In this document: positions 43,202-48,657 of the stretch, one piece after another
Layout: each line of letters begins with the position of its first letter
How positions within the stretch are numbered: position 1 is the stretch's first letter
From: Magnetovibrio sp.
Lineage (GTDB): Bacteria > Pseudomonadota > Alphaproteobacteria > Rhodospirillales_A > JABHCV01
Length of the DNA stretch: 58,860 nt
Reading direction: 5' to 3'
Assembly (NCBI GenBank): GCA_002717285.1
Contig: PBDF01000012.1
Span: forward strand, 25,996 to 84,855
The notes under the pieces: model-generated
What the model was told of the DNA's origin: nothing
The model's database searches: none
Seen by the model: only the letters and a program-made list of their open reading frames with translations
Made by a program: the position numbers and the translations under genes

Positions 43202-43435
43202 CTGAGTCATCTTGTAGCTTTTTCAGATACCTTTCGGAGAGTTGATCAAAAAACCAAGTTATATTAATGATTCTACCAAAGTAAAAAATAAATATATTGG
43301 TTGCCTGTATAAATTGAGCTTGTTAAAAATCAGATATGACTATCGCATATATTTCAACTTTAGTGAATTTCCGGTATATAAAAATTTTGACTCACAAATT
43401 TATGTTGTTTGTCCTTCTCAGGGAGCATTTCTAGT

Positions 43436-44146
43436 TTGTCTGATACTCCTAACCTTGACAAAACACATTTTCAAGAAATTGATAAGAAACGCTTACTGGA
43501 GCCAGACCGTACTTCACACAAACCGCGTATTTTACTCCTTTACGGCTCACTCAGAAAACGATCATTCAGCAGGTTAATGACTGAGGAATCAGCCCGTATT
43601 CTCGAACTGTTGGGAGCCGAAACCAGAACTTACAGGCCATCTGGGTTGCCTCTGCCAGATGATGCAAAAGCTGACCATCCAAAGGTAGAAGAGCTTCGTG
43701 GTTTAGTCAAATGGTGTGAGGGTATGGTTTGGTGTTCTCCAGAAAGGCACGGTGCCATGACCGGTATCATGAAAACCCAAATTGATTGGATACCTCTTTC
43801 CCTGGGTGGAGTGAGGCCAACTCAAGGAAAAACTTTGGCTGTGATGCAGGTGAGTGGAGGGTCACAGAGTTTTAACGCAGTTAACCAACTTCGTATCTTA
43901 GGACGTTGGATGCGTTTACTTACCATTCCAAATCAGTCCTCCACACCTAAGGCATTTAAAGAATTTGATGATTTGGATCGCATGAAACCCTCATCTTTTT
44001 ATGATCGAATGGTAGATGTCATGGAAGAGTTGGTAAAGTTTACGTTACTAACACGCGATAACAAGGCCTACTTTCTGGAACGTTATAGTGAGCGAAAGGA
44101 GTCTGTTGAAGAGCTTTCAAAGCGGGTTAATCAGAGAAGCATTTAA
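43436..44146 (+). CDS. arsH: ArsH-type NADPH-dependent flavoprotein
   Basis: Flavodoxin-fold oxidoreductase linked to organoarsenical oxidation and redox defence. It shows the FMN loop [35 protein letters not shown] and [21 protein letters not shown]. The best start is TTG at 43436, with AGGGAG 11 bases upstream; the frame also opens at 43409, but that would swallow this site. 236 residues. No arsR, arsC or arsB lies nearby, so it is an isolated arsH. Confidence 0.9.
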
Positions 44147-45474
44147 TCATTTTTAGTACTCTTTTTTGTCGATTCTGAGTTAAGTTCTTTAACAAGTTCT
44201 TCAAAACTTGTTTGAATATCTGCTTTAGTTGCGCTGGATGCCACCTCAATTTCTTCTATTTCAAGAATTGGATTAATCGAGACATTAACAGGTACTGGGG
44301 CCAGGGGCTTGAACTCACCGAGATCCTCTATCGCGGTGGCTTCGCGTTGTTTAGATCGGATAACAGCAAAAATGCTGACCAGTGCAAAAGAAATACCGAG
44401 GGCGAGAAAAAAGCCTTGTGGACCCAACCAAGCCATGTAAAAGGCAGCAAAAGGCGCCCCAATAGCTGCCCCGGAGCCATATGCCATTACAAGTGTGCCA
44501 CCTGCAGCTACCCTTTGGCTTGGTGTGAGATAATCATTAGTGTGAGTAGTACAAAGTGGATAAAGAGGCAAGCTCAGTCCACCAATAATGGCAATTTGTA
44601 GGAAAATCAGCAAACCTGAGGCATCAAAGAGTGAAGCACCTAATGAAGAAACAGCGCCAATAAAACAGGTCGCAATTATGACTTGTCGCCTTCCAAAATT
44701 GTCTGATAAACGTCCAATTGGATATTGCATAAGTCCTCCACCAATGATTAGGCTGCCCATAAAAATTGAAATTTCTTTTGTATTTAGTCCAATCGAAAAT
44801 GCGTATACAGCACCCATTCCCATTATGGCTCCAGCACCAGTACCACTAGCAAATGTTCCCAAAACTCCGAGGGGTGACACTTTGATTAGCTGAATGATAC
44901 TTACTGACTCATTTGTCTCGAAGGGAGGAGCACGGTTTATAGAAATAAGAATAGGTATTACAGCGACACTTATGAGAATTGAAATTAAAATAAATAACTG
45001 AAATCCTTCAGGACTTGCTATGTTTAACATGAATTGACCACCTGCTATACAGCCAAAAGTAATTAACATGTAAAATCCCAATAGTTGTCCACGCGTTTCA
45101 TTTTCAGCTGTGTCATTAAGCCAGCTTTCTGCAACAACGTAGAGGCCAGCATAAGCAATGCCTGTGATAAAACGCAGGGCCCACCAAACCCAAGGTTCAA
45201 CAAAAATATAATGAACAAGAATAGCAGTAGATGCGAGTGATGCTAGTGCTCCAAAAGCTCTTATATGTCCAACACGCTGAACCATTACTGGGACTAACTT
45301 AGCGCCAATAATCATTCCTACGTAATAACCTGACATTACCCAGCCGGTTGCTGAAATGCTAAATCCTTGATACGAAGCATGCAGGCCAAGCAATGAATTT
45401 GACAATCCATTACCAAGCATAATCAAGGCCATTCCAAGAAAAAGAGCCCAACAACTTGCAATGATTCTAATCAT
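44143..45474 (-). CDS. MFS transporter, YcaD-like
   Basis: 443 residues with about twelve TM segments. The segment [25 protein letters not shown] is characteristic of the YcaD group of major facilitators. After residue 385 there is a soluble acidic tail of nearly 60 residues ([32 protein letters not shown]), longer than usual. Substrate unknown. AAGGAG lies upstream of the ATG. It converges on arsH with a 4-base overlap and shares its upstream region with the Fur-box operon. Confidence 0.85.
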
Positions 45475-45601: not shown

Positions 45602-45643
45602 TTGCTTAAAAAAAATTTTTATATGATAATAATAATCATTCTC
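45602..45643 (+). promoter_or_regulatory. Fur box over a sigma70-like promoter
   Basis: GATAATAATAATCATTCTC at 45625-45643 matches the classic 19-base Fur box at 17 positions. A -10-like GATAAT (45625-45630) lies inside it, 17 bases after a TTGCTT (45602-45607) that could serve as -35. The box ends 24 bases before the regulator gene, so iron-bound Fur should block transcription. The MFS gene starts 150 bases away in the other direction and might also respond. Confidence 0.65.
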
Positions 45644-45667
45644 AATAAAAAATGACGAGATTTTAGA

Positions 45668-46240
45668 ATGATATATACAGCAAACGACATTGGTGAATTT
45701 TCAGTTCTAGGTATTTGTTACAATAATCCTCTTCATTTTGAACAAATTGTATCTGCTGCAAAAAATCTTATGCCTGAACAATGGTCTCCAACAGCAGAAG
45801 TGGTAGACGCTTCTATTGATCGTTGCGTAGATGTGGGTTATTTGAGTTTAAAAGAAAATAACCAATCTTTTTCAAAATTTGTTCAAATAACTGAATTTGG
45901 GAAAAAAAGACTACGTAGCTTAGTTTTGAAAGATCCCGGCGAAGAGATATCGTCAAGATTACCAGCTTGGGAGTTCTTGCAGTTTTGTTTTCTCGATTTT
46001 ATTGATTGTAATGCTGCAAGAACTGTTTTATTTCGTGCTCGATCAAGACTTCAGCAAAGACTATCAAACTTTCGTCAACGTTCTGAAAAATGCCCACATA
46101 CTGGTCGTTTTACCAATCTATGGCTTACGATAGAAACTGATAGACTCGAAAATTCACTTAAGAGCCTCAATCTAATTTGCCAAGAGATTGATGACGAACT
46201 TCAACTCACAAAATACGGGAGTAATCATCTTTATGATTAG
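45668..46240 (+). CDS. PadR-like winged-helix regulator
   Basis: 190 residues. The N-terminal third fits a PadR winged helix (FSVLGICYNNPLHFEQIVSA, then DASIDRCVDVGYLSLKENN and a wing ending ITEFGKKRLRSLV). The C-terminal half has PadR-like amphipathic helices (RLQQRLSNFRQRS and LWLTIETDRLENSLKSLNLI) that could mediate dimerisation. Homology is by pattern, so it is a tentative call. It is the first gene after the Fur box, and the next gene starts 8 bases before its stop. Confidence 0.6.
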   Translation: MIYTANDIGEFSVLGICYNNPLHFEQIVSAAKNLMPEQWSPTAEVVDASIDRCVDVGYLSLKENNQSFSKFVQITEFGKKRLRSLVLKDPGEEISSRLPAWEFLQFCFLDFIDCNAARTVLFRARSRLQQRLSNFRQRSEKCPHTGRFTNLWLTIETDRLENSLKSLNLICQEIDDELQLTKYGSNHLYD

Positions 46241-46442
46241 CCGGTTAGAATGCCCACTCTGTGATACTACTTTCTTGATAGAACAATGGCATTGTAAAAA
46301 AGATATCTCGACTACTATGAATGCTTCTGGCACAAAAAAGCAGTGGGAAAATCCAGACTTGGCCCTCGGTTTTGAACAACCAGATGCGTCTTTAAATATT
46401 TTCCATTCTTTGTTTAAGATCATTGAGTCTAAAAATGTGTGA
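46233..46442 (+). CDS. 69-residue CxxC protein
   Basis: Starts at the ATG inside the end of the regulator gene and ends inside the start of the DUF2325 gene, so it is part of a fully overlapping trio. Near the N-terminus it has ECPLC (Cys7, Cys10) and WHC (Cys20), suggesting a zinc or iron site; the rest is polar. I do not recognise the family. Existence is supported by the overlaps on both sides and the Cys pattern shared with its neighbour. Confidence 0.6.
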   Translation: MISRLECPLCDTTFLIEQWHCKKDISTTMNASGTKKQWENPDLALGFEQPDASLNIFHSLFKIIESKNV

Positions 46443-47631
46443 TCTTTGCGATGCTGATGTATCCACAAGATCATCAACTGTTCGAAAGCGAATATGGGAA
46501 TTATCTAAAGGGTGGCATTGCTCAATTATTGGTACTTGTTTAAAGCTTTCTGATCTTCGTAACCTTGGTCGAAAACTGAAAGTTCAGACTGTAAAAACAT
46601 TGCAGTGCTCTGTGGATTATCAATTACATGGTCTATTTGTAAAAGAGGTTGGTGAGTCTAATATAGCATCAAAACTGATAAACAAACTTTTAGACAAGCG
46701 TCATGCTTCCTCAATACGTAAAGCCCGCTCTATGAGCACAGAGGCTGAGCTCTTTGATTATTGGTTTGACTCATTGAGCAAAGGGGACATACCGGGACCT
46801 TATTGGTCAATTCTTAGTCATCCTTCTTTGACTGTTAAACTGGCTGAAAGAATGTTTGCTGACATTCACATGCTTTCTCATATGGTTGGCGCTTCAAACC
46901 AGGCTGATATAAGAAAACTTCAATTGTTAGAGGAAAATCTCTCAAAAATGGAAGAGAAGGCTGTTCGCAAACAACGCCAACATTTAAAAAACCTAAAAGC
47001 ACGTGATAAAATAGTTACTGAATTACGTTCTGAATTAAAACGAATTCAAGTAAAAAAAATAACAACTACAGAGCAGGAGACCATATTATCTCCAAATCGT
47101 GACCGTATTTACCAACTAAACCATGATATTTTGCAACTTTCTGCAAAAATTAAATCTAAAAATATGATTATACGCCAAAACCAAGACAAGGTCCGCTACT
47201 TAGAGGCATTGGTTGATGAGCTAAAGGATGAAAATACAAGTCTGGAATTGGCTTGCTCCCAGGGGGGGCCGTTTGCAGATGAGATAGAGACATTGAATTT
47301 GAATGGCAAATGCCTTCTTTATGTTGGTGGGAGACAGAAAACTGTATGTAGGCTGCGTAAACTTGTGGAAGATCTTAATGGTAGGTTTATTTATCATGAT
47401 GGTGGAGTAGAAAGATCTATGAAAGAATTAGCGAGTGCTGTGACGCGTGCTGATGCTGTCGTTTTTCCAGTTGACTGTATAAGCCATGGTGCTGCTAATA
47501 AAGTTAAGCGACTCTGCCAACAGAACTTAAAGCCATTTATTACACTTAGAACGTCAGGAATTGGTTCACTTATTACTGGTCTTAAAGATGAAACACTTAA
47601 TTTGCACTTACATCAGAGCACAGCAAACTAA
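46435..47631 (+). CDS. DUF2325 protein with N-terminal CxxC and coiled coil
   Basis: 398 residues from the ATG at 46435. The N-terminus MCDLCDADV has a CxxC, and WHCSIIGTCLKLSDL adds Cys29 and Cys35. A helical region (about 75-160) with HMLSHMVGASNQADIR is followed by a long coiled coil (about 160-275). The C-terminal DUF2325 domain is KCLLYVGGRQKTVCRLRKLV, then YHDGG, DAVVFPVDCISHGA and TLRTSGIGSL, a Rossmann-like unit. The biochemical role of DUF2325 is unknown. It is the last gene of the Fur-box operon. A start at 46423 is possible, but the ATG at 46435 overlaps the upstream stop. Confidence 0.75.
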   Translation: MCDLCDADVSTRSSTVRKRIWELSKGWHCSIIGTCLKLSDLRNLGRKLKVQTVKTLQCSVDYQLHGLFVKEVGESNIASKLINKLLDKRHASSIRKARSMSTEAELFDYWFDSLSKGDIPGPYWSILSHPSLTVKLAERMFADIHMLSHMVGASNQADIRKLQLLEENLSKMEEKAVRKQRQHLKNLKARDKIVTELRSELKRIQVKKITTTEQETILSPNRDRIYQLNHDILQLSAKIKSKNMIIRQNQDKVRYLEALVDELKDENTSLELACSQGGPFADEIETLNLNGKCLLYVGGRQKTVCRLRKLVEDLNGRFIYHDGGVERSMKELASAVTRADAVVFPVDCISHGAANKVKRLCQQNLKPFITLRTSGIGSLITGLKDETLNLHLHQSTAN

Positions 47632-47675: not shown

Positions 47676-48560
47676 CTATTTGCGCCAAACTGTTACAAAC
47701 CACGGCTGTTTTCGGCGTGGAAGACCTGATGGTCTATAGTAACTTTGAACTTCACTAAAGCCGGCATTAGAAACATATTCTCGCCAGGTTTTTGGATTGA
47801 AGAAGCATCCATAACGGTCGTCGCTATAACCTTCATCATTATTTCCTCGGGGATTTGAACAAAATAAAACGCCAAGTGGTTTAATTGTCTTGAAAAGTTC
47901 GAGCAACACTCGTGGTAATTCACTGCTTGGTACGTGAAACAATGACGCATTAGCGAAAACACCATCATAACAGTTATTTGGCAAATCCAAGTTTAAAAAA
48001 TTTTGATGAAGTATTTCGCAATTACAATTGGATCTTGCCATATCTACGAATTTTTTTGATCCGTCTAGGCCTGTAACTAAATGGCCCGAGTTTTGAAAAA
48101 AAAGTAAATCACGTCCTGGTCCACACCCAAAATCGAGAATTTTGTGAGGCGGGTTGCTTTTAATAGCCCCCAAGAATGATTGGTAATTTTGGCTGACATC
48201 ATGATTTTGTGTATTTTCCCAAAAGTCTTCAGCTAATCGATCATAATGTCCTATAGTCGCTTCAGATATTCCTTGCAGTCTATTATTATTCAGAGTTGAG
48301 AATGTTTTTTTATTTATGACTTCTGTCAGTAATTTTTCTTTACACTCATTTGCTGAAAAAGAATTTCCCAGCGCAGTAATATTTAAATATTCATTTACAA
48401 GTTTGCTGTTCCAGCGTTTGCCCTTGAGGGTAGTGATGCCACTTGAGTTTAAATGACTTGCAATATCTTGGGGAGCAATTAAGCCATCAAGAATGGCTCT
48501 TTCAAATTTGATGATAAGCTGATGAAAGGGAATTTCACTTTTGTTTTGATTTTTTTTCAT
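47676..48560 (-). CDS. SAM-dependent methyltransferase with recombinase-like N-terminus
   Basis: 294 residues. The C-terminal two thirds are a class I methyltransferase: GHYDRLAEDFWENT, motif I ILDFGCGPGRDLLFF, the acidic LDGS, and FANASLFHVPSSELPRVL. The first 95 residues are unusual. DGLIAPQDIASHLNSSGI with TTLKGKRWNSKLVNEYL resembles the DNA-binding segment found in serine recombinases (I-A-x2-L-N-x2-G-I-x-T-x2-G-x2-W). Substrate unknown. The ATG at 48560 is preferred over a TTG at 48581. Confidence 0.75.
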   Translation of the reverse strand: MKKNQNKSEIPFHQLIIKFERAILDGLIAPQDIASHLNSSGITTLKGKRWNSKLVNEYLNITALGNSFSANECKEKLLTEVINKKTFSTLNNNRLQGISEATIGHYDRLAEDFWENTQNHDVSQNYQSFLGAIKSNPPHKILDFGCGPGRDLLFFQNSGHLVTGLDGSKKFVDMARSNCNCEILHQNFLNLDLPNNCYDGVFANASLFHVPSSELPRVLLELFKTIKPLGVLFCSNPRGNNDEGYSDDRYGCFFNPKTWREYVSNAGFSEVQSYYRPSGLPRRKQPWFVTVWRK

Positions 48561-48657
48561 CAATAAAACTCGCAAACACAAACGGTATTATTTTTAAAAT
48601 AAGGCAACCATAATCATAAGCTGCTTAATTGCTGGATAGTCATTTTTCGCAGTTAAA

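Follow-up and report, generated by a model that had tools for sequence, protein, structure and literature searches.

Among described DUF2325 systems, the closest to the locus studied here is cj1384c of Campylobacter jejuni, which belongs to the pair cj1383c-cj1384c beside katA and whose product carries a DUF2325 domain (PMC9426514). It is a Fur-repressed gene (PMC4491227, PMC9426514), which is up-regulated in a fur mutant, has a Fur repression motif upstream and is strongly changed under iron limitation (PMC4491227, PMC3815106, PMC9426514). Moreover, bactericidal violet-blue light induced the gene 352-fold, with a mutant more sensitive at the highest dose only (PMC9426514). Another DUF2325 protein is named as a possible encapsulin cargo in anammox bacteria (PMC6934571). 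Concerning regulation, the Fur protein of Magnetospirillum binds promoters that have a conserved 19-bp palindromic motif in common. A literature search on DUF2325/PF10087 returned nothing on the long form of the protein or on the iron/molybdenum split described below, although an earlier description elsewhere is possible, most subscription journals lying outside the coverage of that search. A preliminary description of the present locus, based on its letters, had presented it as one iron- or heme-linked sensing or repair module not described as such, which needs qualification, a Fur-repressed DUF2325 gene having already been published with cj1384c.

The window, a stretch of 58,860 nucleotides from Magnetovibrio sp., contains three consecutive genes on the plus strand: gene 1 (45668-46240; 190 aa), for an AphA-like/PadR-type winged-helix regulator; gene 2 (46233-46442; 69 aa), for a miniprotein with a CPLC motif; and gene 3 (46435-47631; 398 aa), for a long protein ending in DUF2325. 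The start of gene 2 overlaps gene 1 by 8 bases (ATGATTAG, 46233-46240, plus strand) and genes 2 and 3 overlap by another 8 (ATGTGTGA, 46435-46442, plus strand), as read from the sequence, so that the coordinates directly confirm the overlaps reported earlier; the cysteines are also where they had been placed, in ECPLC of gene 2 and in MCDLC and C29-x5-C35 of gene 3. The second overlap is identical in the loci of three relatives (L001, L002, L003), where the first one is ATGA, of 4 bases. With C. jejuni the trio would have in common a DUF2325 gene under Fur control. Cj1384, however, has 104 aa and lies beside katA, whereas gene 3 codes for 398 aa, among them a helical N-terminal part and a probable coiled coil, and is accompanied by an AphA-like gene and a miniprotein gene.

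Upstream of the trio, a Fur-box-like palindrome, GATAATAATAATCATTCTC (45625-45643, plus strand), matches 17 of the 19 positions of the Fur 19-mer, a consensus that PMC545781 gives identically with one N. It is the sole site of the window reaching at least 15/19, and in 200 simulated sequences with the dinucleotide make-up of the window the expectation was 0.03 sites of at least 16 and 0.0 sites of 17; when only the 192-bp intergenic region was simulated, 17/19 was attained once in 20000 trials. The box noticed at first sight is thus real and above chance. In the nearest relative, L001, an 18/19 Fur site ends 32 bases before the AphA-like gene, and the corresponding genome (G001) has a FUR match at 128 bits. 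The promoter that the box was said to overlap did not withstand closer inspection: the candidate TTGCTT-N17-GATAAT (45602-45630, plus strand; chosen by eye, with its -10 element inside the Fur box) is weak, matching 8 of 12 positions and falling under the scan threshold, and the scan gave 3 promoter-like sites versus a mean of 1.6 in shuffles, not above chance. The other palindrome dealt with below, the ModE-type CGNTATAT-N8-ATATANCG, is absent upstream in the window (best score 9/16).

The AT-rich intergenic region with the Fur box is common to the trio and a divergent MFS transporter gene (44143-45474, minus strand). In L001, a 441-aa gene occupies the position equivalent to that of the MFS gene; given this placement and the common intergenic region, the MFS gene may share the control of the trio. 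Two genes upstream of the trio, and tail to tail with the MFS gene, the window contains ArsH (43409-44146; TIGR02690, 394 bits for a cut-off of 292). Downstream of the trio there are a methyltransferase gene (47676-48581) and SelO, the former with a weak recombinase-like helix-turn-helix in its N-terminal part (HTH_62, E 0.04, under the cut-off).

Gene 3 is the core of the operon. As anticipated, its product ends in DUF2325 (PF10087, residues 293-384, 78.4 bits for a gathering cut-off of 33.6), and a search recovered 2165 proteins at E<=1e-3. In the AlphaFold2 model (pLDDT 88.2, but a pTM of 0.48) the N-terminal region is helical, residues 134-274 form long helices and residues 290-398 an alpha/beta domain. 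The helical N-terminal region (residues 17-155; 46483-46899, plus strand) carries the invariant C29, C35, H65, H145 and H149; the long helices (46834-47256, plus strand) probably form a coiled coil, and PDB sequence matches are mostly coiled-coil proteins; the DUF2325 domain itself (47311-47586, plus strand), with a receiver/Rossmann-like fold in the model, carries the invariant H321, H351 and C361. All these residues, together with G33 and T34, are invariant in 98 of 98 aligned rows. The structural neighbours, of receiver and nucleoside deoxyribosyltransferase type, concern mainly the alpha/beta domain and cover for the most part residues 286-398, with middling Z values (best Z 10.0, rmsd 2.8, 96 residues aligned), and a fold search with the whole model returned nothing at E<=0.001 and no informative match for the N-terminal region. 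Such a set of invariant cysteines and histidines would suit a metal site, although their role can be structural or catalytic instead.

Relatives were collected by scanning one genome per species, which gave 388 relatives, the best 80 of which were kept (L001-L080), so that the set leans to the kin of the window. A further search covered 150 genomes from the order to which L001's genome belongs; 38 of them had a match, and 30 loci were obtained, while pattern matches in viral contigs included no relative. In a first pass with regions anchored on the operon start, a Fur site of at least 14/19 was present in 36 of 104 loci, duplicates included, compared with 18 among 679 upstream regions serving as controls. 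The loci lacking such a site are in many cases of the Rhizobiales type, and among these a different palindrome was found, CGTTATAT-N8-ATATAACG, which fits the Escherichia coli ModE consensus, ATCGNTATATA-N6-TATATANCGAT, as quoted in PMC545781; in L050, one of the loci concerned among L016-L080, this ModE-like palindrome is complete (16/16, upstream of 2488). A tree of 97 de-duplicated long DUF2325 proteins was then built by a quick method, the root not being inferred, after removal of L007 (too little upstream sequence), of the same-genome copies L112, L113, L118, L124 and L132, and of eight further duplicates. One branch with an SH-aLRT support of 100 parts 48 rows including the window (branch I) from 49 others (branch II, to which L050 belongs).

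The two kinds of box follow this division. A Fur box of at least 14/19 precedes 32 of the 48 branch I genes (31 of 47 without the window) and none of the 49 in branch II, whereas a ModE-like box of at least 13/16 is found in 0/48 and 37/49, respectively; 16 rows of branch I and 12 of branch II have neither. Among the control genes, taken from those loci of L001-L080 that are rows of the tree, the Fur box occurs in 11/257 in branch I and 3/391 in branch II, and the ModE-like box in 1/257 and 20/391. Since the rows are related, Fisher values overstate these contrasts and should not be read as if every row were an independent event. A slight advantage is also given to rows with an AphA-like gene by taking the better of two upstream regions, and in L042 the AphA-like start was shifted 144 bases inwards. 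The expectation that Fur sites would lie upstream of the DUF2325 genes of relatives is therefore sustained in the branch of the window. Regarding iron control itself, sequence comparison supports it well through the conserved box in branch I and some iron-linked neighbours, with the 16 boxless rows on the opposite side.

As the Fur threshold was adopted after a first look at the loci, and the ModE-like threshold after the palindrome had been found in much the same loci, new genomes offer a fairer test. The ModE-like box occurs in all four new full-length rows of branch II (L152, L162, L165, L184), whereas among the 16 new full-length rows of branch I (L141, L142, L144, L147, L166-L176, L186) a Fur site of at least 14 is present in four (L141, L142, L144, L171) and a ModE-like one of at least 13 in none; these rows were selected by reading the output, omitting copies of genomes already used (L145, L153, L164, L183, L185, L204) and partial, split or short genes (L143, L146, L148-L151, L154, L158, L177, L178, L181, L187-L190). 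The molybdenum half of the pattern is thus confirmed and the iron half only in part. Of the twelve branch I rows that miss the Fur site, ten stem from a search within the order of the Bradyrhizobium genome G452, where 10 of 11 loci (L166-L176) lack the box; this order mostly uses iron regulators other than Fur. In five of those eleven loci an Irr/RirA-like motif, TTTAGAA-N3-TTCTAAA, scores at least 11/14, always with a spacer of 3, whereas 43 of 1389 background windows reach that score when every spacer from 0 to 4 is allowed; the comparison being post hoc, and the background a mixture of coding and intergenic DNA, this is only a lead. One genome, G725, has both kinds of locus, L144 with a Fur-like site (14/19) and L162 with a ModE-like site (14/16), besides L206 and L207; the placement of L162 in branch II is narrow (383.1 versus 367.9 bits). 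Outside the long family, boxes were also seen at short DUF2325 genes or gene fragments, ModE-like in L190 (16/16) and Fur-like in L151 (17/19).

Candidate regulators were looked for in these genomes. All 12 branch I genomes searched have a FUR-family match, which exceeds 100 bits in nine of them and does not rise above 77 bits in G005, G006 and G012. Regarding ModE, all 13 branch II genomes gave a match at E<=1.8e-22, and 4 of 11 from branch I gave one at a similar level, the curated cut-off of the model being passed by only 1 of these 24 genomes; short frames suggest that the ModE proteins involved are single-domain. Single-domain ModE proteins are known (PMC545781). The molybdate regulon governed by ModE is in this regard the closest parallel for branch II, whose boxes fit the E. 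coli consensus and would be bound by ModE, whereas the branch of the window has Fur boxes instead, presumably bound by Fur.

The neighbouring genes were surveyed in hand-picked samples. Near 30 loci of branch I, 99 of 123 listed proteins, with families taken from the 25 commonest, include imelysin (6), AphA_like (6), redoxin (5), cytochrome c (5), di-haem oxidoreductase (4) and FUR (4), the four FUR genes being convergent neighbours in L018, L019, L031 and L041. Near 49 loci of branch II, 116 of 203 listed proteins contain aldehyde dehydrogenase as the commonest family (10), followed by SBP_bac_11 (5), DUF2478 (5), periplasmic binding proteins (5), TOBE (3), MoeA (2) and the heavy-metal-chelation family DUF364 (2). 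These counts make the metal-linked families a minority of the neighbours in both branches. Neighbours of about 480 aa had raised the suspicion of catalase, but the single example examined, in L045, proved to be an aldehyde dehydrogenase. In several branch I relatives, imelysin or di-haem oxidoreductase genes follow the DUF2325 gene, as in iron-linked loci, whereas neither lies beside the trio of the window. A role in metal starvation best explains why the protein falls into two branches, each preceded by a repressor site that belongs to a different scarce metal and flanked in part by genes concerned with the metal in question.

A different reading is that the locus belongs to peroxide or redox defence, with the DUF2325 cysteines acting on oxidants and Fur control merely linking it to the iron and oxidative stress regulon. 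The redoxin genes, 5 among the 99 proteins sampled around branch I loci, would fit, as would the binding of Magnetospirillum Fur to the katG and sodB promoters and the association of cj1384c with katA and its response to violet-blue light (PMC9426514), tempered there by the dose at which the mutant is sensitive. Nevertheless, redox defence does not explain branch II, with its molybdate-type box and partly molybdate-type adjoining genes, and the N-terminal MCxxC pair of the DUF2325 protein, found in 26 of 48 rows of branch I, occurs in none of the 49 of branch II, so that it is not needed family-wide (in that table L007, L062, L111, L112, L118, L120 and L121 bear the label II by default only, each of them duplicating a branch I locus or being closest to one). 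We regard this reading as unlikely, and metal starvation as the better account.

The first gene had been taken for a PadR-like DNA-binding protein, an assignment that both sequence and model uphold. It matches AphA_like (PF14557) by a narrow pass (28.8 bits for a gathering cut-off of 27), and a profile of 15 rows matches PDB 2rkh, a putative AphA-like factor, at 1.1e-11. The model (pLDDT 88.4) has a winged-helix fold with C-terminal helices and resembles the PadR-family structure 8ioi (query TM-score 0.70-0.71) and Rv0047c, 8jxk (0.61-0.67); scores are lower for PadR 5x11 (about 0.40) and for 2rkh (0.39, rmsd near 18), which may reflect a different placement of the two halves relative to each other. 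Its association with DUF2325 is restricted to branch I, where 10 of the 48 rows have an AphA-like gene close to that of the DUF2325 protein, with 0 of 49 in branch II. The contiguous order of AphA-like gene, small ORF and DUF2325 gene occurs in eight branch I rows (the window, L001, L002, L003, L030, L042, L060 and L128), all eight with a Fur box of at least 14/19; of the two remaining loci, L131 lacks such a small ORF between the genes and L029 has another gene there, and both are without a box of that score. Conservation of the trio in relatives is accordingly true of these eight rows, always together with the box, and not of the others. Because the trio rows sit in separate parts of branch I, the arrangement is either old and often lost, or gained more than once.

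These data bear on the possibility that the locus is mainly a regulatory module, whose output would be the AphA-like protein and whose metal- or ligand-sensing partner would be the DUF2325 protein. The PadR-like fold, the overlapping starts and stops, and the ten rows with both genes contiguous or near agree with it, but no AphA-like gene was seen in the other 38 rows of branch I or in any of the 49 in branch II (about 1.5 to 8 kb per side, some stretches ending at contig ends), which suggests that DUF2325 seems to work without one. Conversely, a class-wide sample gave 58 AphA_like matches, the best 30 of which, examined over stretches of about 3.5 kb, have neither a long DUF2325 neighbour nor a Fur box of at least 14. 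A PadR/AphA core of the system was rejected, since most branch I rows show no such gene in the examined stretch, and the module as mainly regulatory appears quite improbable to us. The notion of a chance AT-rich palindrome before an ordinary operon without iron control, to which the G+C content of the window (39.8%), the AT-rich intergenic region and the promoter scan lend some colour, can be practically dismissed in view of the simulated expectation for a 17/19 site, of the excess of boxes over controls in branch I, and of boxes at loci with a high G+C content, for instance L006 (0.66) and L010 (0.62).

The miniprotein is the least conserved part of the trio. No Pfam family exceeds its cut-off in gene 2, which also fails the zinc-ribbon model (Zn_ribbon_5, 12.7 versus 29.3 bits) and has one CxxC only; just two database proteins match it. 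It looks nonetheless like a genuine gene from its substitutions: the versions of the window and of L001 are both 69 codons long, with 46% protein identity, a dN of 0.42 and a dS of 1.38, and 24, 21 and 34 changes at the three codon positions. Small ORFs of about 60 codons occupy the same place in L002, L003, L030, L042, L060 and L128 without a CxxC pair, which makes the pair local to the close relatives of the window. The idea of a CxxC miniprotein as part of a conserved module, whether as zinc or as redox partner, was for this reason abandoned as a family trait, and the gene appears poorly conserved from these comparisons. After the DUF2325 gene, a number of relatives (L002:2535-3062, L003:9188-9709, L004:9217-9672, L005:9223-9750, L006:9209-9673, L011:9200-9727 and L075:9181-9717) encode a separate protein of 150-180 aa with an invariant DIRCxxC motif, mostly in the form DIRCPxC, in several loci before imelysin. 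The protein of L004 has no Pfam match, and a relationship between the DIRCxxC proteins and the miniprotein was not accepted (17 columns, probability 18.7%).

Altogether, we consider it somewhat probable that iron-loaded Fur represses the trio as an operon for iron starvation, in which the long DUF2325 protein acts as a metal-starvation metallo-adaptor of a family with iron and molybdenum branches. When iron falls, Fur would leave the box over the start region, and on derepression the three overlapping genes, probably coupled in translation, would be made together. The core product would be the long DUF2325 protein, whose helical N-terminal region presents the invariant Cys/His set, whose long coiled coil may drive oligomerisation, and whose receiver-like domain has its own invariant His and Cys residues. 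Most likely, such a protein would bind a transition metal or its cofactor and serve in delivery, sparing or sensing during starvation, while the AphA-like protein may tune the operon or a partner promoter and the miniprotein may be a fast-evolving accessory. It is the presence of the same protein in a second branch, behind ModE sites, that extends this picture from iron to metal starvation as a family trait with two branches.

For the family at large, we tentatively propose, with rather less conviction, that the long DUF2325 proteins could make up a class of metalloproteins for metal starvation that has not been described so far, divided into an iron branch (Fur boxes and partly an extra N-terminal MCxxC) and a molybdenum branch (ModE boxes), where one scaffold would have diverged in metal specificity along with its regulator and would deliver the scarce metal, spare it or sense it. 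In that case a domain without a known function would gain a testable role, and the two branches, each tied to its own metal, would provide a built-in comparison on a common scaffold; a genome with both copies, like G725, would allow the branches to be separated within one strain. In marine settings iron is often limiting, and an unknown member would thereby join the starvation response of marine alphaproteobacteria.
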